From Burkholderiales bacterium (GTDB lineage: Bacteria; Pseudomonadota; Gammaproteobacteria; Burkholderiales; WYBJ01), in NCBI GenBank assembly GCA_022841915.1, contig JALHQN010000029.1, positions 1 to 50,175 of the forward strand: a DNA stretch of 50,175 nucleotides, given 5' to 3'. Below, in pieces: positions 33,940 through 45,689 of the stretch. The first letter of the stretch is position 1; each line of letters opens with the position of its first letter. Made by a program: the position numbers and the translations under genes. The notes beneath the pieces are model-generated. The model had not been told where the DNA came from. It ran no database searches and worked only from the letters and a program-made list of their open reading frames with translations.

Positions 33940-36900
33940 GTGTGCCAGGAGCTGTTTTCCGGGCTGCGCGCCGTCATGCGCGCGGCCCACGAGCGTTGCA
34001 TCGAGCGCATCGGCCGCGGCATCGCCGAGCATCCCTCACCCCGCCCGATCGCGCTTCGCTTCGCCGCGCTGCTCGCGGGTTTGTTGTTACCGTTGAGCGC
34101 ATGGTCCTTCGACCTGCAGGTTTCGTCCTTCATCGATACGCCTGACCCCGCCATCGCCGGAGGCCGCTTCACCTATGCCGTGGTGGTGACCAACGGTGCG
34201 GCCGATGCCGCACCCGCGTCCGAACTCACCGTCACGATGGATCCCAATCTCGTCGTCGACGGCCCCCTGCCGCCGGGCTGCACATTCGAAACGACGCCGC
34301 GGCAAGTGCGTTGTACCTTGCCTGGGCTCGCCGGCACCACCGCCACGACCCGCAGCTTCGATGTGAACCACAATGCACCGGGCTCGGTCGTCATCAACAG
34401 CACGGCCACGGTGAGCTTTCTGGCGGGCGATACCAACGCCGGCAACAATGCGCTGACGCAGAACACGACCATCAATCGCGGTGCGAACCTCGCCCTTTCG
34501 AAGGCCGCCGTGGCGCCCACGGTTCCCCAAGGCGGGCAAGCCACCTTCGCCATCGACGTGTCGAACGCCGGACCGGACGCCGCCCCCACAGGTGTGCAAG
34601 TCACCGACACGTTGCCGAGCAACCTCAGCTTCGTCTCTGCCGCGGGCGGGGGTTGGTCGTGCTCCGCCGTCGGCCAGACAGTCACTTGCCTGAACCCGAA
34701 CAATCTTGCTGTCGGCGCCTCGACCCCGCAGTTGTCGATCACCACTCAGCTTGCCGGTGGCATAGCCACGGGCACGGTGACCAATCCGGCAACAGTCGCG
34801 GCGATCGACAACCTTCTCGGCGACGGCAATCCGAGCAACAACACCAACACTGCCACCTTTCAGGTATTGCCGGGCGCCGATCTCGCCGTCGGCAAGTCGG
34901 TCACGACACCCGTGATCAGCGCCGGTCTCGTCACGTTCACGCTCACGCCGAGAAACAACGCAGGCAGCACGGCAGCCAATGTCGAAGTCGTCGACACACT
35001 GCCCGCCGGATTCACCAACATCGCAGCCAACGGCGCAGGCTGGACCTGCGGCGTCGCCGGGCAGACGGTCACGTGCACGCGCGCCGCCTATGCGGTCGGC
35101 GCCACCGACGACATCGTCATCACGGCCACGGCGCCCACCACCACGACGCTCACAAGCTTCTCCAATAACGCCACCATTGCATCGGCGACGCTGGATCCCG
35201 CGCCTTCGAACAACACGTCGAACACGGTCAACTTCAACGTGCAGCCCGACGGCGCCGATCTCACCATCGCGAAGACCAAGACGCCCAATCCGGTGGCCCA
35301 GGGTTCGTCGATGACCAGCACGATCACGGTGCGCAATCTCGGCCCCCAGGCGGTTCCCGCCGGCGGCACGATCACGGTCACAGAAACCGGGGCCGCAGGC
35401 GAGACGCTCAATTCGGCGAGCGGCACGGGCTGGACTTGCGGCGCCCCGGTCGGGAATGCGATCACGTGCTCCAGGCCGGGCCCGCTGGCGTTGAATGCCA
35501 CGGCCCCTGTCATCACGGTCGCATCGACCGCGACCGCATCGGGCACGTTGAACAATACCGCAACGGTGACATTGAGCGGCCCGGTCAGCGATCCGGTGGC
35601 CGCCAACAACAGCATCGGCGCCAGTTCGAATTCCACCTCGACCATCGCCGATCTGCGGCTGACCAAGAACGTCGATCTCGCGACGCTCACCACCGCGCAG
35701 AACACCCTCGTCTATACCTTGATCGTGACGAACGATGGGCCGGGCACGTCCACCAACGTCACCGTCACCGATCCGGTGCCGATGTTCACCAGCAGTTCCC
35801 TGCACGGCACCACCGGCGTCACCGCGATTGCAACCCAGGGCACCTGCACGGTGAACGGCACGAACGGCACCGTCACCTGCAATGTCGGCACGCTCAACAA
35901 TGCCGCGTCGGCCACCATCACGGTCACGGTCAATCGCCCGATGCGCGACGGCCCGTTCACCAATACCGCCACCGTCACCTCCCCGGACATCGGCGACCCC
36001 AACCCGGCCAACAACAGCGCATCGGCGAATACGACGGTCAACCCGATCGCGGATGTCGAGGTCACGAGCAAGTCGGTCACCCCGGGCACAGTACGGGCCG
36101 GCACCAACGCCACCTACGTGCTGAACTTCCGCAACAACGGGCCGTCCGCCGCGGCCGATGTGACGATCAGCGATCCGATCACCTCGTCCTCAGGCGTCGA
36201 CACGGGACTCACGGTGATCAGCGCGAGCTGCACCAAAACGGGCTGCACCTGCACCTATACGCCGGGTGCCATCGGCGCCTTCAACTGCACGGTCGGCACC
36301 ATGGCCAGCGGCGAGACCGCCAGCGCCACCTTCGTCGTCCGGCCGAACTTCGTCGCCGGCAATCCGACGAGAACCTTCAGCAACACCGCGACGATCGCCA
36401 CGACCACCACCGAAAGCAATGCCGGCAACAACGCTCTCACCGCCACGCTTGAGGTCCAGCCCGCCCTGCTCGATCTGGTCGTGAACAAGACCGATCTGGT
36501 CGATCCCGTCGGCTTCGATGCGACCTCACCGAACAACTTCATCGACTACCGCATCGCGATCACCAATAGCGGCCCCTCCTACGGCACCGGCATCCAGATC
36601 ACGGATACCATGACACCGGTCGCCGGCAAGAACCTCGAGTTCATCGGCCTTCAGACCACGACCTGCACGACACCGGCAGCGGCCACCTGCGCGGGCGGCG
36701 GGACGATCTTCGGTACGGCGACAGCCTTCGTCTGCGGCAACTTCGAGCTGACGGCGGGCGGAAGCTGCTCGATGGACCTGCGCTTCCGGGTGGTCGACGC
36801 GCCGGCCCTCGGAGGCGATACCTACAACAACATCGCGGCAGCCACCTCGAACGAACCGGACTCCAACGCGCTCAACAGCAGCGAAGGCGAGAGCACCACG

Positions 36901-39900
36901 GTGCGCGTGCGGGCCGACATGGAGGTCGTCAGCAAGACACCCTCCGTCGCCACCGTCGACATCAACCAGCCCTTCAACTGGATCGTCACCGTGCGCAACA
37001 ACGGTCCGGGCGACAGCGAACTCACCACCGTGACCGATACGCTGCCGGCCGGCATGGCGGTCTTCGGCGGAACGCCGAGCTACACGAAGACGGGTCCGGT
37101 CGGAGGCGCCAACTGCACGGTGGTCGGCCAGCTCGTCACCTGCGCCATGGGGCAACTGAACGCCGCGCAAACGGCGACGATCACGATTCCGGTGCGCATC
37201 ACGGCCTTCCCCGCTGGAGGCGTCGCCAACAACACGGCCGCCGTGAGCACGAGCGAAGTCGACTTCGTGTCGGGCAACAACAACCGCCTCGGGACGGTGA
37301 ACGTGCGCAAGTCCAGCGTGGCCGGCCGTGTCTACAACGATGCGAATCTGAGCGGCGCGTTCAATCCGGGCGAAGGGATCGCGGGCGTGCAACTCACGCT
37401 GAGCGGTACGGACGCCTTCGGCAATACGCTCTCGCGCATCGTCACCACGCAGCCCGACGGCAGCTATCTCGTCGACGATCTGCCGCCCGGCACCTACCAG
37501 GTCGTGCAGACGCAGCCTGCCGGATTCTCCGACAGCAAGGAGGTCGCGGGCACCGCGGGTGGAACCGTGCCGCCTGCGTGTCCGCCGGCCGGCAACTGCG
37601 GCGCCGGCGCTGCGCAGAACACGATCGCCAACATCGTGTTGCCTGCCGCGACCACCGCCACCGGATACGACTTCGAGGAATTCCAAGGCGCGACGGTGTC
37701 GGGCTTCGTCTACAACGATCGGAACAACAACGGACAGCGCGAAGCCGGCGAAACGGGCATCGCCGGCGTCGTCATCTCCCTCACGGGCATCGACTACGCC
37801 GGCAACCCGGTCAACCTCAACGCAACCACGAGCCCCACCGGCCAGTACACGTTCGCGAACGTGCCGCCCTCGGGCGCCGGTGGCTACATCCTCACCGAGA
37901 CCGCGGAGCCTGCCGGCTTCCTCGACGGCCAAGACCAGAACGGCGCAGGCGCGGGCAATGTCATCGCGGCGAGCGCCGGACGCCCGACGCCCGAAACGAT
38001 CACGCTTGCGGCCGGATCGGTGACCCCCGGGGGCACCGTCACGGAACGCAACTTCGGCGAAATCGAGAGCTCGACGATCGCCGGCACGGTCTATGTCGAT
38101 ACCGACGGCAACGGCGTCCGGGGCGGCGGAGAAACCGTCGGCATACCGGCGGTCGCTCTCGTGCTCACCGGTACCAACGACCTCGGTCAGGCCGTCAACT
38201 GCACCGTGACCACCAACGGCACCGGTGCCTACAGCTTCCCGAATGCGGCCGACGCCAACCCGGCCTGCCGCAGCCTGCGCCCCGGCACTTACGTCATCAC
38301 GGAGACTATCCCCGTCGGCCTGACCTCCACGGGGGCCCAGGTCGGCACCTCGGGGGGCACTGCAGGCGCGAGCCCCACCACCCAGTTCACGAGCAACGTC
38401 GTCATCGCGAACCCCGGCACGAGCGCCGGCAACTACAACTTCGGCCATCAAGGCACCCTGCTCGCCGGCTCGGTCTACGTCGACAGCAACAACAACGGCA
38501 TTCGCGATCCCGGTGAGCCGGGCATTCCCGGCGTCGCGGTGACCCTGTCGGGCAACACGGCCGGCAACGTGAACGTTTGTACCGTGCTGCCCGCCTGCAC
38601 GGCCACCACCGACACCAACGGCAACTACCTCTTCGCCAATCTGCCGGCAAGCAATGCGACGGGCTACACCCTGCGCGAAGCCGATGCCGGCAATGTGCCC
38701 AGCCCCATTCTCGCCAACTACGCCGACGGCACCGATCGCGCCGGCACCGTCAACGGCGTGCCGGTCGGCGCCGCCGGCAACGACATCATCAACGGGATCG
38801 TCATCGCCATCGGCCAGGTCGGCGCGAACTACGACTTCGGCGAGCGCGGGCAGTCGCTCTCCGGGCGCGTCTACACCGACAACAACAATGACGGCGTCGT
38901 GCAAGCCGCCGAGACCGGCATCGCGAACGTCACGATCACGCTCTCGGGGACCACCAACACCGGCGTCGACGTCTGCACGATCGTTCCGAGTTGCACCGTG
39001 ACGACGAACATCGACGGCAACTATTCGTTCGACAATCTTCCCTCGGGCACGTACACGCTGACCCAGACGCAGCCCACGGGCTACGCCGACGGCCGCGAGA
39101 CGGCCGGCAATCTCGGCGGCACCGTCGACAACGGCACGTTCACCGGCAATCCCGCGCAGAACCGGGTCAGCGGCATCGTCCTGGGCACCAACCAATCGGG
39201 CACGAATTACAACTTCGGCGAACAGACCTCGAAGATCCGCGGCTCGACCTACGTCGACACCAACGGCAACGGGCAGCGCGACAACGGCGAGGCCGGCATC
39301 GCCGGTGTGACGATCACTTTGACGGGCACCGACAATCTCGGCAACCCGGTGACCCGCACCACCACGACGGACAGCAGCGGCAATTACCTGTTCGACGGCC
39401 TGCGCCAGGGCACCTACGCCGTCACTCAGACGCACCCGACGATCTATACCGACGGCATCGACCGCGCGGGCACGGCCGGCGGCGTGGCGGGTAACGACGT
39501 CGTCACCGGGATCGTGTTGGGCGCGGGTGTGGATGCGACCAACTATGAATTCGGCGAACAGCCGCTCGCGCTCGCCTCGGTTGCCGGCCGCGTCTGGTTC
39601 GACACAAATCACGACCGCCTCGACAACGACGGCATCGGCGCCGGTCGCGGCAATTGGATCGTCGAACTCGTGCGCGCGGGCACCGTAGTGCAGACGACCC
39701 GCACAGACACCAACGGTGACTATCGCTTCACCAGCGTGACACCGAACACAGGCTACGAAATCCGCTTCCGCAACCCGAGCAACAACGCCGTGTTCGGCAA
39801 CCCGCGCGTCGAGGCCGGCAGCCTCGTCCCCGGCTCAGCAGTCGCCAACGGCATCATCGGCAACCTCAACGTCGTCTCGGGGGCGAACGTCGTCGGCCAG

Positions 39901-41361
39901 AACCTGCCGCTGGATCCGAACGGGGTCGTCTACAACTCGGTGACGCGCGAGCCGGTGACAGGCGCGACGGTCACGCTCAACGGGCCGGCGGGGTTCGATC
40001 CGGCGACCCACCTGCTGGGCGGCGCCGGAAACGTCGCGCAGGTCACGGGTGCCGACGGGTTCTATCAATACATCCTGCTCGCGGGCGCGCCCGCCGGCAA
40101 CTACTCCCTGTCGATCACCGCGCCCGCCGGCTTGCTGCCCGCGCCTTCGGCGTTGATTCCTGCGTGCACGGCAACCCTGAACGTGGGCGCGGCGCCCGAG
40201 CCTTCGCTGGTGCAAGCCGGCAATACGGCGCCGGCCATCGCCGCCCCGGCACACGATCCGGCCAATTGCCCGCCCACCTCGATCGGCCTCGCCGCCGGTG
40301 CCGCGACGACGCAGTACTACCTCGCCTTCGTGCTGACGCCGGGGGTCTCGGCGAATCTCGTCAACAACCACATTCCGCTAGATCCGGTGCTGGGGGGCGC
40401 GCTCGTCGTACAGAAGACGACGCCGATGATCAACGTCTCCCGCGGCGATCTGGTGCCGTACACGATCACTGCGACCAACACGCTGGCCGTCACGCTCAAC
40501 AACATCGACCTGCGCGACCTCGTTCCGCCCGGCTTCCGTTATCGGCTGGGCAGTGCGACGCTCAACGGCGTGCGCCTGGAGCCCGCGGTCGCCGGCCGTG
40601 AGCTGAACTGGCGCAATCTGACGTTCGCGCCGAACGAGCGCAAGACCTTCCGTCTGCTCCTGGTCGTGGGCTCCGGCGTCATGGAAGGCCAGTACGTCAA
40701 TCAGGCCTACGCCTCGAACAACATCGCCAACCTCCCGACCTCGAACGTCGCGACCGCGACGGTACGCGTGGTGCCGGATCCGACCTTCGACTGCACCGAC
40801 GTGATCGGCAAGGTGTTCGACGACAAGAACGCCAACGGCTACCAGGATCAAGGCGAACCCGGCATCCCGAACGTGCGTCTCGCCACGGCGCGCGGCTTGC
40901 TGATCACCACCGATGCGCAAGGCCGCTACCACATCCCCTGCGCCATCGTCCCGAACGAGATGCGCGGCTCGAACTTCGTCGTGAAGCTCGACGCGCGCAC
41001 GCTGCCCTCCGGATTCCGCGTCACCACCGAGAACCCGCGCGATGCCCGCGCGACGCGCGGCAAACTGGTGCGCATCGACTTCGGTGCGACCGTGCATCGA
41101 GTCGTCCGGGTCGAGGTATCGCGGGATGCTTTCGATGCCGATTCGGACACGCTGCGCCAAGAGTGGCGCGCTCGCTTCGATGCGCTTCCCGCCATGCTCA
41201 AGGCCACGCCGTCCGTGGTGCGTCTGGCCTATCACCTGCGAGACGAGGATCGCGCGCTCGTCGAGCGTCGAGTCCAGGCGCTGACCGAGGGGCTGCGAGA
41301 ACGATGGCGAGAGGAACGCGGGGGCTATGCGCTGGTGATCGAGCAGGAGGTGATGCCATGA
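33940..41361 (+). CDS. Giant DUF11/SdrD-B repeat surface protein
   Basis: 2473 residues, GTG start with AGGAG about ten bases upstream. A hydrophobic export signal (ALRFAALLAGLLLPLSAWSF) lies at about residues 29-49. Eight DUF11-like Ig domains follow (about 50-1120), each with the pattern ADLxxxK..., N-x-GP, VTDTLP and often a Cys pair (GWSCSAVGQTVTC). Six SdrD-B-like domains start at about residues 1127, 1253, 1380, 1508, 1640 and 1766, with calcium-type loops such as DTNGNGQRDNGE, plus related domains at about 1881 and 2288 and one further DUF11 domain near 2140-2270. The last 79 residues resemble a degenerate OmpA fold. Thr/Asn/Gly-rich composition fits an extended extracellular stalk. 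It overlaps the downstream outer-membrane gene. No LPXTG, T1SS or T9SS signal was seen. Confidence 0.9.
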   Translation: MCQELFSGLRAVMRAAHERCIERIGRGIAEHPSPRPIALRFAALLAGLLLPLSAWSFDLQVSSFIDTPDPAIAGGRFTYAVVVTNGAADAAPASELTVTMDPNLVVDGPLPPGCTFETTPRQVRCTLPGLAGTTATTRSFDVNHNAPGSVVINSTATVSFLAGDTNAGNNALTQNTTINRGANLALSKAAVAPTVPQGGQATFAIDVSNAGPDAAPTGVQVTDTLPSNLSFVSAAGGGWSCSAVGQTVTCLNPNNLAVGASTPQLSITTQLAGGIATGTVTNPATVAAIDNLLGDGNPSNNTNTATFQVLPGADLAVGKSVTTPVISAGLVTFTLTPRNNAGSTAANVEVVDTLPAGFTNIAANGAGWTCGVAGQTVTCTRAAYAVGATDDIVITATAPTTTTLTSFSNNATIASATLDPAPSNNTSNTVNFNVQPDGADLTIAKTKTPNPVAQGSSMTSTITVRNLGPQAVPAGGTITVTETGAAGETLNSASGTGWTCGAPVGNAITCSRPGPLALNATAPVITVASTATASGTLNNTATVTLSGPVSDPVAANNSIGASSNSTSTIADLRLTKNVDLATLTTAQNTLVYTLIVTNDGPGTSTNVTVTDPVPMFTSSSLHGTTGVTAIATQGTCTVNGTNGTVTCNVGTLNNAASATITVTVNRPMRDGPFTNTATVTSPDIGDPNPANNSASANTTVNPIADVEVTSKSVTPGTVRAGTNATYVLNFRNNGPSAAADVTISDPITSSSGVDTGLTVISASCTKTGCTCTYTPGAIGAFNCTVGTMASGETASATFVVRPNFVAGNPTRTFSNTATIATTTTESNAGNNALTATLEVQPALLDLVVNKTDLVDPVGFDATSPNNFIDYRIAITNSGPSYGTGIQITDTMTPVAGKNLEFIGLQTTTCTTPAAATCAGGGTIFGTATAFVCGNFELTAGGSCSMDLRFRVVDAPALGGDTYNNIAAATSNEPDSNALNSSEGESTTVRVRADMEVVSKTPSVATVDINQPFNWIVTVRNNGPGDSELTTVTDTLPAGMAVFGGTPSYTKTGPVGGANCTVVGQLVTCAMGQLNAAQTATITIPVRITAFPAGGVANNTAAVSTSEVDFVSGNNNRLGTVNVRKSSVAGRVYNDANLSGAFNPGEGIAGVQLTLSGTDAFGNTLSRIVTTQPDGSYLVDDLPPGTYQVVQTQPAGFSDSKEVAGTAGGTVPPACPPAGNCGAGAAQNTIANIVLPAATTATGYDFEEFQGATVSGFVYNDRNNNGQREAGETGIAGVVISLTGIDYAGNPVNLNATTSPTGQYTFANVPPSGAGGYILTETAEPAGFLDGQDQNGAGAGNVIAASAGRPTPETITLAAGSVTPGGTVTERNFGEIESSTIAGTVYVDTDGNGVRGGGETVGIPAVALVLTGTNDLGQAVNCTVTTNGTGAYSFPNAADANPACRSLRPGTYVITETIPVGLTSTGAQVGTSGGTAGASPTTQFTSNVVIANPGTSAGNYNFGHQGTLLAGSVYVDSNNNGIRDPGEPGIPGVAVTLSGNTAGNVNVCTVLPACTATTDTNGNYLFANLPASNATGYTLREADAGNVPSPILANYADGTDRAGTVNGVPVGAAGNDIINGIVIAIGQVGANYDFGERGQSLSGRVYTDNNNDGVVQAAETGIANVTITLSGTTNTGVDVCTIVPSCTVTTNIDGNYSFDNLPSGTYTLTQTQPTGYADGRETAGNLGGTVDNGTFTGNPAQNRVSGIVLGTNQSGTNYNFGEQTSKIRGSTYVDTNGNGQRDNGEAGIAGVTITLTGTDNLGNPVTRTTTTDSSGNYLFDGLRQGTYAVTQTHPTIYTDGIDRAGTAGGVAGNDVVTGIVLGAGVDATNYEFGEQPLALASVAGRVWFDTNHDRLDNDGIGAGRGNWIVELVRAGTVVQTTRTDTNGDYRFTSVTPNTGYEIRFRNPSNNAVFGNPRVEAGSLVPGSAVANGIIGNLNVVSGANVVGQNLPLDPNGVVYNSVTREPVTGATVTLNGPAGFDPATHLLGGAGNVAQVTGADGFYQYILLAGAPAGNYSLSITAPAGLLPAPSALIPACTATLNVGAAPEPSLVQAGNTAPAIAAPAHDPANCPPTSIGLAAGAATTQYYLAFVLTPGVSANLVNNHIPLDPVLGGALVVQKTTPMINVSRGDLVPYTITATNTLAVTLNNIDLRDLVPPGFRYRLGSATLNGVRLEPAVAGRELNWRNLTFAPNERKTFRLLLVVGSGVMEGQYVNQAYASNNIANLPTSNVATATVRVVPDPTFDCTDVIGKVFDDKNANGYQDQGEPGIPNVRLATARGLLITTDAQGRYHIPCAIVPNEMRGSNFVVKLDARTLPSGFRVTTENPRDARATRGKLVRIDFGATVHRVVRVEVSRDAFDADSDTLRQEWRARFDALPAMLKATPSVVRLAYHLRDEDRALVERRVQALTEGLRERWREERGGYALVIEQEVMP

Positions 41362-44300
41362 TGCGCCTACGCCCGATCGCACTCGCCGTGTGCGCCGTCT
41401 TCGGCGCCGCCCATGCGCAACAGCCGCACGCACCGGAGCCCTCGAACCGCGGCAAGATGCTGAACGAGGATGTGTCTTTCGTCCACGGCACGCCGCCCTC
41501 GACGGAACTGCCGCTGCAGTTCGCGCCGCCCGCGGGCTTGTCGGCGTCGGATGTCTTGCGCATGCGCGATGCCGTGCGCACCTTGCCGCAGAAGCCCCCG
41601 GTCGAAACTCGAAGCCTGCAAGACACGCTTACCGGCGCCCTCTTCGCTTCCGGACAAGACATCCTCACGGCACAAGCGCGAGCCCAACTCGACACCCTGG
41701 CCGCGAAAGTGCATGGCAAGGCCAAGCTCAAGCTCTCGATCGTCGGCCACACCGACAACGAACGCATCGGCCAAGCCGACACGCTGCGCCGCTTCAAGGA
41801 CAACCAGGGGCTCTCGGAGGCCAGAGCCGCCGCCGTCGCGGGTTACCTGAAGGAGAAGCTCGGCCTGTCGGCGGATGCCATCGCCATCCAGGGTCGCGGC
41901 GAGCGCGAGGCGGTCGCGGACAATTCGTCGCCCGAGGGCCGGGCACGCAACCGCCGGGTCGAGATCGCGCTCTGGTACGAGGAGACCACGGTCGGCAAGA
42001 CGCCACCGCCCAAGACCGAGCGTTATCGGGAAACGACGTCCTCGTGCGGCGCGGGCGCTTCGGCACGACCGGGCGTACCGTTCCGCGTCACCGTCGACGG
42101 GGTACCGATCGAAGAGGACAAGCTGCGACCGGAAGCGGACCGCGAGCGCTGCGTCGACGTGGCGCTGGAGCGAGCCGACATCCAGTTGAAGTACGACCCC
42201 CTCAACGTCTCCCCCGCCCTGAACGTCTGGACCACCCGCAGCGGCGTGCTGCGCGGCGCACCGGTGGAGTTCCACACCTACAGCAACTACATGCGCTGGA
42301 TACGCAAGGCCGAGATCCGCGTGTTTCAGAAGGGACAGGACTTGCTGACGGCCCCGCTCGCCGTCATCCCCGTGCGACTCGGCGCGACCACTGCCTGGCA
42401 ACCACCGACCGGTGCGCCGGTCGATCTCGTGTACCTGCTGCGGGTGTACGACGAGCGCAACCGCTTCGACGAAACGCAGGGCAAGTCCCTGGCGCTGCTC
42501 GAACGCGAGATCGGATTCGACGATCAGGACAAGCTCGAGCGCGAGCGTCTCGCGGGCTACGGCGAGAACAGCCGCCGGATCACGAACATCCCGGTGCGCG
42601 GCGGCACGGTCACCGTGAGCGGCACGGCGATTCGCCCCGATCAGACGGTCAGTGTGTTCGGCGGCGTCGTACCGGTCGATCCGACGGGCCGATTCGCCTC
42701 GCGACAGATCCTCCCGGCGGGCCCGCACAGCATCGAAGTGACGCTCGCCGAGAAAGACGGCAGCGCCACCACCTTCCGGCGCAATCTGAGCATCGCCGAC
42801 CGCGACTGGTTCTACGTTGCCTTGGCCGATATCACCGTCGGACGCAACCGCACGACCGGGCCTGCACGACTGGTCACCCAAGACACCTACCACTACGAGA
42901 ACAAGGTGTATGTGGACGGGCGCGGCGCCTTCTATCTGCGCGGATTGATCAAGGGCGAGTACCTCCTGACGGCAGCGGCGGACACGCGCGAGCAGCCGCT
43001 GCGCGATCTCTTCAGCAACTTCGCGTCGAAGGATCCGCGTTACTTGCTCCGGCGCATCGACCCGGACCGGTACTACCCCGTCTACGGCGACGACTCCACG
43101 CTGGTCGACGATGCACCCACGCAAGGCAAGTTCTACGTGCGCCTGCAGAAGGACGACTCGCATGTCATGTGGGGCAACTTCCAGACCGCCTGGACGGGGA
43201 CCGAGCTGACGCAATACAGCCGCGGCCTCTACGGCGCGAACATCGTCTGGCGTCCCGACGGTTCGACCAGCTACGGCGAGAAGCGCACCTCGGTCAACGC
43301 CTTCGCCGCCGAACCGGGCACCTTGCAATCCCGCGAGGAGTTTCGCGGCACCGGCGGATCGCTCTACTACCTGCGCCACCAGGACATCACGCTGGGCTCA
43401 GAGCGCGTCTGGGTCGAGATTCGGGACAAGGACTCCGGCCTCGTGTTGAGCCGAACACCGTTGCGTCCGGTCGAGGACTTCGAGGTCAACTACCTGCAGG
43501 GCCGCATCATCCTGCGCGCACCGCTGCCATCGACGGCGGATGGATCGACTTTAGTCCAGACCTCCACCCTCAACGGCCATCCGGTCCACCTCGTCACCAC
43601 CTACGAATACGTCCCGGGCGTCACTGCGCTCGACTCCAATGCGTATGGTTTGCGTGCGCACCAGTGGGTCAATGATCACGTCGGCATCGGCGTCGCCGCT
43701 TACAAGCAAGGCGAAGCCGGCAGCGACCAGCGCCTGCGCGGGGTGGACCTCACGTTGCGCTACAAGCCGGGCACCTACCTCAAGGCCGAGGCGGCGCGGT
43801 CGAGCGGCCCAGGCACGGATACGGCCAGCTCCATCGACGGCGGCTTCGGCTTCAATGCCTATGCGAGCAGCGGCCTGGCTGCGACTGCCCGCCGCCTCGA
43901 AGGCGGCGTGGAGTTGTCGGACATCAGCGATACCTTGAAAGGCCGTATTCGCGCCTATTGGCAGGACAAGGATACGGGCTTCTCCGGTCCGGGCCAGATC
44001 ACGCTCAATGGCGAAGGCATCGAACAGCGCGGCGCGAGCGGCGTCGTCGAGCTCAATCCCTCGACGGCCCTGCACTTCAAGGCGGACGATCGCCAGGCCA
44101 TCAGCCAGGACATGCGCGTACTCGAAGGTTCCGTGCGTCATCGCTTGACGCCCCAGTGGAGCGTCGGCGCGGGCGTGCGTCACGACGATCGCGACACGCG
44201 CATCGCCAACGCGAGCCCCATCCTGTCGCAGAGCGGGGAGCGCACCGATGTCGTGGTGCGCTTCGACTACCGTCCGCTGCTCGCACCCCAGGAAGCTGCG

Positions 44301-45689
44301 CGACTCGATCGGATCGCCAAGGAGCGTGCGGCGCAGACATCCACCCAGCCCGGAGCGCCTGCGACGACGACCGCCGCCCCGGCGGCCGCGAACGGCGCGG
44401 TCTCCAACAGCATGCTGGCTTCGAGCCATCCCTCGCTGCACGAAGCACCCGCGCTCGTCAGCGGCACGGCGATGGCGCCCGAACCGGGTCTGCGCTACGA
44501 GCCTTGGTCGCTTTACGGATTCGTCCAGGGAACCGCTTCACGGTCGGGCAATCGCACCGCCAACGATCGTGCGGGTATCGGCGGCAGCTGGCAGGCCACC
44601 GATCGCTTGCGTGTGATCGGCGAGCTCTCCGGAGGCGATGGGGGCGCGGGAGGCAAGGTCGGCGGCGACTGGCGCATCGATGATCGCAGCAACGCCTATC
44701 TCACCTACAGCATGGAGAACGAACGGCCCGATGCGGCGTATCGAGGCCGGTTCTCGAACCTCGTCTCGGGGACACGGTACCGACTGAACGACCGCACCTC
44801 GACCTTCGGCGAAACCCGCTGGGGCAACGGCGCCGGCCCGGAGAGCATGACTCATGCTTTCGGCATCGATTACGCGCCGGCGGATCGCTGGACCACCGGC
44901 TTCAAGTTCGAGACCGGCAAGTTGTCCGATCCGCTCGCAGGCGATCTGAAGCGCGACGCGGTGGGCGTCTCGGCGGCCTATCGGCGGGACCAGACGCGGT
45001 TGGCATCCGCGCTCGAGTATCGCCAGGAAGAGAGCAACACCAGCGGGGAGCGACGCACCTGGCTGATGCGCAACTCGCTCGGACATCAGGCCACCCCGGC
45101 GTGGCGCTTGCTGGGCAAGCTCAACTTCTCGTTCAGCCAGGCGAGCGCGGGGCGCTTCTTCGACGGCGATTTCGTCGAACTGGTGACGGGCGCGGCCTAC
45201 CGCCCGGTCGACAACAACCGCTGGAACACGCTCTTCAAGTACACGCATTTCTATACCCTGCCCTCGCCCGGCCAGGTCGCGGCCAACAACACGGTGCTCG
45301 ACTTCGCGCAGCGCAGTCACGTGTTCAACATCGACACGATGTACGACGTGAAGCCCTGGCTCTCGGTCGGGTTCAAGTACGGCCTTCGCGTCGGCGAACT
45401 CAAGGATGCCAAGGTCGACGGCAACTGGTACTCGAGCCGCGCGGACCTCATCATCGGGCGCGTCGATCTGCACTGGGTGAAGTCGTGGGACGCGGTGCTG
45501 GAGCTGCGCCGCTTGTCGGTCAAGGAAGCCGACGATTCGCGCAAGGGGGCACTGGTGGGCGTGTACCGACACCTCGGCGAAGGCGTGAAGGTCGGCGTAG
45601 GCTACAACTTCACCGATTTCTCGGACAACCTCACCGACCTGTCGTACCGCAGCCGCGGCTGGTTCCTGAACGTGCTGGCGACGTTCTGA
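41358..45689 (+). CDS. Large outer-membrane protein: OmpA-like domain plus beta-barrel
   Basis: 1443 residues. The signal peptide ends at GAAHA-QQ (about residue 20). An OmpA-like peptidoglycan-binding domain (about 92-207) comes first: FASGQDILTAQARAQLDTLA, GHTDN with Asp133, LSEARAAAV with Arg156, and ARNRRVEIAL. Eight extra residues separate Asp133 from Arg156 compared with OmpA. A central region of Ig-like/unknown domains (about 210-690) includes YYPVYGDDSTLVDDAP, and the C-terminal 700 residues are alternating-hydrophobic strands ending NVLATF, a BAM-type final Phe. AGGAGG precedes the ATG, which overlaps the giant gene stop (ATGA). Probably anchors or exports the repeat protein; that role is inference. 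Confidence 0.88.
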   Translation: MMRLRPIALAVCAVFGAAHAQQPHAPEPSNRGKMLNEDVSFVHGTPPSTELPLQFAPPAGLSASDVLRMRDAVRTLPQKPPVETRSLQDTLTGALFASGQDILTAQARAQLDTLAAKVHGKAKLKLSIVGHTDNERIGQADTLRRFKDNQGLSEARAAAVAGYLKEKLGLSADAIAIQGRGEREAVADNSSPEGRARNRRVEIALWYEETTVGKTPPPKTERYRETTSSCGAGASARPGVPFRVTVDGVPIEEDKLRPEADRERCVDVALERADIQLKYDPLNVSPALNVWTTRSGVLRGAPVEFHTYSNYMRWIRKAEIRVFQKGQDLLTAPLAVIPVRLGATTAWQPPTGAPVDLVYLLRVYDERNRFDETQGKSLALLEREIGFDDQDKLERERLAGYGENSRRITNIPVRGGTVTVSGTAIRPDQTVSVFGGVVPVDPTGRFASRQILPAGPHSIEVTLAEKDGSATTFRRNLSIADRDWFYVALADITVGRNRTTGPARLVTQDTYHYENKVYVDGRGAFYLRGLIKGEYLLTAAADTREQPLRDLFSNFASKDPRYLLRRIDPDRYYPVYGDDSTLVDDAPTQGKFYVRLQKDDSHVMWGNFQTAWTGTELTQYSRGLYGANIVWRPDGSTSYGEKRTSVNAFAAEPGTLQSREEFRGTGGSLYYLRHQDITLGSERVWVEIRDKDSGLVLSRTPLRPVEDFEVNYLQGRIILRAPLPSTADGSTLVQTSTLNGHPVHLVTTYEYVPGVTALDSNAYGLRAHQWVNDHVGIGVAAYKQGEAGSDQRLRGVDLTLRYKPGTYLKAEAARSSGPGTDTASSIDGGFGFNAYASSGLAATARRLEGGVELSDISDTLKGRIRAYWQDKDTGFSGPGQITLNGEGIEQRGASGVVELNPSTALHFKADDRQAISQDMRVLEGSVRHRLTPQWSVGAGVRHDDRDTRIANASPILSQSGERTDVVVRFDYRPLLAPQEAARLDRIAKERAAQTSTQPGAPATTTAAPAAANGAVSNSMLASSHPSLHEAPALVSGTAMAPEPGLRYEPWSLYGFVQGTASRSGNRTANDRAGIGGSWQATDRLRVIGELSGGDGGAGGKVGGDWRIDDRSNAYLTYSMENERPDAAYRGRFSNLVSGTRYRLNDRTSTFGETRWGNGAGPESMTHAFGIDYAPADRWTTGFKFETGKLSDPLAGDLKRDAVGVSAAYRRDQTRLASALEYRQEESNTSGERRTWLMRNSLGHQATPAWRLLGKLNFSFSQASAGRFFDGDFVELVTGAAYRPVDNNRWNTLFKYTHFYTLPSPGQVAANNTVLDFAQRSHVFNIDTMYDVKPWLSVGFKYGLRVGELKDAKVDGNWYSSRADLIIGRVDLHWVKSWDAVLELRRLSVKEADDSRKGALVGVYRHLGEGVKVGVGYNFTDFSDNLTDLSYRSRGWFLNVLATF

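Follow-up and report, generated by a model that had tools for sequence, protein, structure and literature searches.

Here, we describe two overlapping genes, P1 and P2, in a 50,175-nucleotide stretch of DNA (the window) from a Burkholderiales bacterium (assembly GCA_022841915.1, contig JALHQN010000029.1), and propose that they encode a split, autotransporter-like surface fiber. P1 (33940 to 41361, forward strand) encodes a giant repeat protein of 2473 residues from a GTG start, while P2 (41358 to 45689, forward strand) encodes a 1443-residue protein predicted to end in a large beta-barrel; the genes share the four bases ATGA (41358 to 41361). In our proposal, which we consider slightly better than an even bet, P2 anchors the fiber, the P1 C-terminus docks on it in the periplasm, and the P1 repeats pass outward. 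The pairing of the genes, their fusions, the OmpA-like tail of P1, the barrel prediction, and a SprA-like segment of the barrel were all obtained by computation, and we infer that the barrel also exports P1. An original prediction, made from the sequence without database searches, had called both genes with their overlap and lengths, which the open reading frames (ORFs) bear out; the conserved module at the end of P1, its degenerate OmpA-like tail, the natural fusions, and the segment shared with SprA go beyond it.

The two genes are almost always found together

The C-terminal module of P1 and the P2 barrel were searched for separately in each of 399 genomes of the order. Each was detected in 51 genomes, with both in 49; the module profile includes DUF11 and SdrD_B parts, and some of its weak matches may be other DUF11 proteins. 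Only the module was found in G165 and G184, and only the barrel in G054 and G163, the latter as a 57-position fragment. In some genomes (e.g., G141), the two matches lay several kilobases apart. Within the source genus, the source genome (G000) and G003 carried both parts, and G001 and G002 carried neither.

Named loci comprised the best 80 of at least 548 confirmed relatives. A six-frame profile search of these loci placed P1 upstream of the barrel on the same strand in 66/80 and in one frame with it (fused) in 5/80, with neither arrangement in 9/80; at seven of those nine, no more than 441 base pairs lay upstream of the barrel frame. A further 40 regions, many of which had supplied the profiles, included 23 pairs, 16 fusions, and 1 with neither, at a contig end. 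At least two named contigs (L082, L090) are likewise identical with profile sources (G068, G027). With 49 genomes shared and 71 of the 80 named loci paired or fused, the earlier suggestion of a dedicated pair withstood this check; homologues occurring mostly apart, and prediction of P2 as a non-barrel protein, were both looked for and not found. Pairwise distances of the P1 module and P2 were also correlated (r 0.73, 46 loci), with none of 2000 permutations giving as high a value. No conserved third gene was detected among 310 neighboring ORFs of 69 loci, where no family occurred in more than 5 loci.

The genes might instead be adjacent through common transfer, with their products physically unlinked. 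The barrel is found on plasmid records, 20 of them covering 80% or more of the query, so the pair could move as a unit. We regard this explanation as very improbable, as fusions exist, the conserved C-terminal module of P1 stands beside variable repeats, and a 4-base overlap is frequent (29/59 named pairs with both ORFs called).

Together with one short piece, the plasmid records number 21, of which 16 are predicted to be non-mobilizable and some are chromosome-sized; recent transfer is possible. P2 relatives on plasmids are annotated as OmpA family protein, TonB-dependent receptor, or hypothetical protein, among others. The named loci were mostly from Pseudomonadota (Herbaspirillum, Janthinobacterium, Methylobacillus, Rhizobiales, and gammaproteobacterial metagenome-assembled genomes, MAGs), with others from MAGs labelled Elusimicrobia, Rhodothermales, Syntrophaceae, and Desulfuromonadales. 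Nitratireductor soli carries an apparently lone barrel gene (L129:8714-12766). At L151:5005-12781, two tandem P1-like proteins (704 and 657 residues), each with a near-full module, lie ahead of a single barrel gene, an arrangement in which two fibers might share a barrel.

P2 is predicted to form a very large outer membrane barrel

From its ATG at 41358, P2 opens with an ordinary-looking signal peptide that, by eye, ends at about AHA-QQ; a longer frame of 1508 residues begins at an upstream GTG. Pfam places an OmpA domain at residues 95 to 199 (41640 to 41954, forward strand), with GHTD and NRR motifs read in its sequence. Two soluble middle domains follow (about residues 230 to 395 and 416 to 476; 42045 to 42785, forward strand), the second of them immunoglobulin (Ig)-like, with a Glucodextran_B match below the Pfam threshold. 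The rest of the protein, about residues 483 to 1443 (~960 residues; 42804 to 45686, forward strand), is predicted from AlphaFold2, Foldseek, and a profile match to be a large transmembrane beta-barrel.

The AlphaFold2 model of residues 244 to 1443 (60 alignment rows; predicted local distance difference test score, pLDDT, 78; predicted template modeling score, pTM, 0.73) showed soluble domains first and then, from residue 483 on, 41 strands of at least 8 residues, some of which may form a plug. Nearly all of the best 50 Foldseek matches listed for this model were outer membrane barrels (best E 2e-8), with TonB-dependent receptors as the best matches, and a profile of the barrel matched OmpT porin chains (E 2.5e-5). 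The C-terminal phenylalanine of P2 was counted toward the prediction. Hydrophobicity alternates along the barrel strands, a weak indicator given that soluble strands of the same model alternate too. The model appears to support a large barrel rather than any fold assignment. Searches with the barrel region alone gave only sub-threshold matches in Pfam and none in NCBIfam up to E 1, and no autotransporter Pfam domain was found in P2, in its barrel region alone, or in four relatives. An usher-like barrel was considered, since FimD was among the Foldseek matches, but was rejected on usher profile probabilities of 0.6 and 1.0 (nine usher proteins, some partial). LptD gave hhalign probabilities of 9.1 and 3.0 (19 sequences).

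Pfam, AlphaFold2, and Foldseek thus agree with the original call of an OmpA domain, middle domains, and a C-terminal barrel. The accompanying idea that P2 carries its own OmpA anchor held in the window and was only partly general across the family. Just 29/73 barrel ORFs with room for an OmpA domain had one, and the barrel protein of G003, a relative from the source genus, did not; the domain is optional in the family. A role in anti-phage defense was rejected, the PADLOC ZorB matches being confined to the OmpA/MotB domain, and PHROGs matches to P2 were set aside in the same way, being confined to this domain or directly ahead of it.

Part of the P2 barrel resembles the type 9 translocon SprA

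SprA forms a barrel of 36 strands through which proteins bearing a C-terminal signal pass (PMC10994853). When an alignment of P2 was compared with 30 SprA sequences, taken from 30 loci out of 47 genomes with a match, hhalign aligned 121 columns at probability 90.2 (E 1.5e-6, per single comparison), corresponding to residues 659 to 804 within the barrel region (43332 to 43769, forward strand). Including the fused relatives in the P2 alignment gave a probability of 91.6. Reversed SprA gave 0.4, usher 0.6, and LptD 9.1, with all controls and reversals falling between 0.1 and 9.1. Comparison with a single SprA sequence was weak (best score 35.8, probability 5.4), with 20 shuffles scoring at most 26.1, and an NCBIfam scan of the barrel region of the window returned no match to the SprA model (TIGR04189) up to E 1. 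These comparisons are evidence for a distant relationship between part of the P2 barrel and SprA, and not for membership in the SprA family.

The SprA model also gave weak, sub-cut-off matches (positions ~600 to 690) to a second kind of protein, encoded in frames of ~1060 to 1270 residues, which may mark a wider class of barrels with a SprA-like segment.

P1 ends in a conserved module with an OmpA-like tail

Among 15 P1 proteins compared, the repeats were variable, and the C-terminal ~600 residues were strongly conserved and held nearly all invariant columns. By alignment, this module spans about residues 1880 to 2473 in the window (39577 to 41358, forward strand) and contains the ninth DUF11 domain (40402 to 40764) and a final SdrD_B-like domain; a predicted structure of residues 1990 to 2473 had a pLDDT of 91.7. 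The best Foldseek matches to this model were Gram-positive pilins (BcpA, EbpB) and SdrD, and the DUF11 structure 9ifr was matched as well; a profile search of the module likewise matched SdrD and 9ifr. At two-gene loci, the module mostly ended at most 19 residues before the stop. Exceptions were L088 (29 residues), L099 (43 residues, in a broken frame), L135 (433 residues, with extra OmpA domains), L154 (a broken P1 piece), and the distant loci L056, L057, L070, L076, L077, and L078, with 82 to 128 residues beyond the module. A variable passenger joined to a fixed C-terminal module is what would be expected if a dedicated partner reads the module.

The last stretch of P1, about residues 2384 to 2473 (41089 to 41358, forward strand), is a degenerate OmpA-like tail by hhalign and predicted structure, and is our candidate docking domain. 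It matched the P2 OmpA domain with an hhalign probability of 90.9 and an E-value of 1.1e-6 (one comparison, 68 columns). The tail was predicted to fold as beta-alpha-beta-alpha-beta and lacks the GHTD and NRR motifs present in P2. A tail profile, 48 rows of which derive from the same loci, matched 61/62 called P1 ORFs. These comparisons characterize the tail as OmpA-like at the level of sequence and predicted fold. OmpA domains of the P2 kind bind peptidoglycan, which makes a periplasmic location most likely for the end of P1.

An OmpA domain on one protein and an OmpA-like tail on the other, both periplasmic features, would also suit a periplasmic or envelope-spanning scaffold in which P1 and P2 form no surface fiber. 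We consider such a scaffold improbable: the repeat domains of P1, at least 17 in a row, would exceed the periplasm if extended, and DUF11 repeats have been described as stalks of surface adhesins (PMC12617251).

Natural fusions suggest a topology for the pair

The clearest and closest fusion, L145, is a single chain of 3125 residues with 9 DUF11 stretches, 5 SdrD_B stretches, and the barrel, and it matches positions 1 to 245 of the 333-position module. In L127 and L125 (the latter truncated by its contig start), one chain holds the P1 module, two consecutive OmpA domains, middle domains, and the barrel, while the L065 fusion has a single OmpA domain between module and barrel. L135, a two-gene locus, carries both OmpA domains at the C-terminus of P1 and none on its P2. 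The corresponding order in the window is module and tail on P1, then OmpA domain, middle domains, and barrel on P2. Because an OmpA domain occurs on either side of the gene junction, the C-terminus of P1 and the N-terminus of P2 would lie in the same compartment. In a simple history, one chain carrying two OmpA domains would have broken at the point where they meet, or two separate genes would have joined there.

In L067:4872-19900, the fused barrel protein adjoins another giant gene, as it does in L062, L066, and L074. The giant neighbor in L067, with 15 DUF7933 and 2 DUF11 stretches, is perhaps a further partner.

The fusions also bear on whether P2 acts only as an anchor, with P1 crossing the outer membrane some other way, after which its module would bind P2 from outside or through the pore. 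This reading draws on the lack of an exporter hallmark such as POTRA in the Pfam scan, on TonB-dependent receptors as top Foldseek matches and as the database name of several relatives, and on a PorP-like barrel reported to anchor type B cargo in the type 9 secretion system (PMC9143113). We nevertheless judge it rather unlikely, given that the fused relatives hold repeats and barrel in one chain, that no conserved third gene stands nearby as a candidate exporter, and that the OmpA domains found beside the P1 module point to a C-terminus in the periplasm.

A proposed route for display of P1

On the split-fiber proposal, Sec would export P1 into the periplasm, where its C-terminal module and degenerate OmpA-like tail would remain and dock on the N-terminal domains of P2. 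P2 would be inserted in the outer membrane, forming a very large barrel partly related to SprA; in the window, its OmpA domain would also hold it to peptidoglycan. The repeat region in the N-terminal part of P1 (DUF11 and SdrD_B) would reach the surface, most probably by way of the P2 barrel, and fold there into a long stalk with a probable fiber or adhesin role. More tentatively, at somewhat less than an even chance, the family may constitute a separate one- or two-gene pathway of outer membrane display, in which a giant barrel related to SprA would export a single dedicated fiber of Ig repeats, recognized via its conserved C-terminal module. This pathway would have OmpA anchors on either partner in part of the family and a fused/split switch at the OmpA junction, and would extend across Pseudomonadota and a few MAGs labelled as other phyla.

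Several points weigh against the split-fiber proposal. The Foldseek template modeling (TM) scores for P2 are low (0.08 to 0.20 by query length among the 50 matches listed), which makes the strand number and pore width of the barrel uncertain. The SprA match spans 121 aligned columns only, and P2 profiles compared with sequences in the PDB yielded no SprA among the best 60 of 70 matches in one comparison, or among all 4 and all 9 matches in two others. The OmpA domain is missing from 44/73 barrel ORFs with room, so that anchoring to peptidoglycan cannot be a general trait. Of the 20 fused ORFs, only 3 showed a clear OmpA domain at the position between module and barrel, and the remaining 17 showed none; L145 lacks both an OmpA domain and the tail, and the module match is weak in L125 (102 bits) and L127 (81 plus 72 bits). 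The 80 named loci are the best-scoring relatives and no random sample, and two of them have a barrel without P1 despite room upstream (L129, 8.7 kb; L156, 1.7 kb). Finally, correlated distances of module and P2 can arise from shared descent.

Repeat architecture and surroundings of P1

A Pfam scan gave nine DUF11 and eight SdrD_B stretches in P1, in line with the about nine and seven or eight first counted, and a whole-genome search showed these nine to be the sole DUF11 matches. Eight DUF11 (CLIPPER) domains lie in tandem by Pfam (34111 to 37287, forward strand), a set that differs between relatives, followed by a block of SdrD_B-like repeats whose ends were placed by eye (37288 to 39549, forward strand). 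An alternative ATG start lies at 33976. With a signal peptide read by eye, P1 shows the feature by which DUF11-stalk fibrillar adhesins are recognized, namely DUF11 domains arranged in tandem on a long exported protein. No Pfam adhesive-tip domain was found at E 0.01, which leaves room for an undescribed one.

Lys, Asp, and Asn positions are kept, by eye, in several P1 DUF11 domains; in a DUF11 crystal structure, an internal isopeptide bond stabilizes the domain (PMC12617251). P1 (33940 to 41361) also contains 34 cysteines, many as close-spaced pairs inside DUF11 domains, and these pairs suggest that disulfides may form in addition to isopeptide bonds. The flanking genes are ordinary: upstream lies a gene for a CLC-type channel, and downstream, on the opposite strand, one for a TctC-type receptor.

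Comparison with known systems

A search of the open-access literature, with most subscription journals outside its scope, gave no description of the P1/P2 pair or of the P2 barrel family among the titles and abstract openings listed. The surface route of giant DUF11/SdrD_B proteins in Gram-negative genomes is often unclear, and the pairing supplies a concrete partner, natural fusions, and a small candidate recognition module, ~90 to 600 residues long. Because the genes are almost always together and sometimes fused, the pairing suggests a little-known means of holding a giant fiber at the cell surface and perhaps of exporting it.

Classical (type Va) autotransporters share with the fused relatives the order of an N-terminal passenger and a C-terminal barrel. 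Their barrels have ~12 strands, whereas that of P2 is far larger (about 40 predicted strands) and lacks an autotransporter Pfam domain; the P1/P2 system further differs in its Ig-type passenger, its two genes in the window, and the OmpA domains at the junction in some relatives. Two-partner secretion (type Vb) also joins a giant protein and a barrel partner from adjacent genes. The conserved domain of TpsA proteins is N-terminal, in contrast to the C-terminal conserved part of P1, and a Pfam scan at E 0.01 found neither POTRA in P2 nor a TpsA/TPS secretion domain in P1, so the distinction from this class that was drawn at the outset holds at the level of Pfam domains. Inverse autotransporters (intimin/invasin) have an N-terminal barrel followed by an Ig passenger, the opposite of the C-terminal barrel in the fused relatives.

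The module resembles Gram-positive pilins (BcpA, EbpB) and SdrD, its top Foldseek matches. Gram-positive pilins and Sdr adhesins are anchored by sortase, whereas no sortase (PF04203) was found in the source genome (96% complete). The proteobacterial dedicated sortase system likewise has an OmpA-type protein, PdsO; the P2 OmpA domain scored 36.7 bits against the PdsO model, far under its cut-off of 152.2, and with no sortase in the genome we rejected anchoring of this kind. The DUF11/CLIPPER fibrillar adhesin B9T28_05395 of Acinetobacter silvestris combines a DUF11 stalk with a C-terminal OmpA-like anchor on the giant protein (PMC12617251), and the P1 module matches the solved structure of its DUF11 domain (9ifr). 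In contrast to P1/P2, that adhesin is described as one polypeptide that bears an OmpA-like anchor.

SprA, the type 9 translocon, shares with P2 the related 121-column segment and a very large barrel, and its cargo is recognized through a C-terminal domain (PMC10994853). P2 differs in having no SprA match in NCBIfam up to E 1 and in that its cargo would be a dedicated neighbor. Should a barrel related to SprA function in Pseudomonadota independently of the other type 9 machinery, it would bear on the origin of that translocon.

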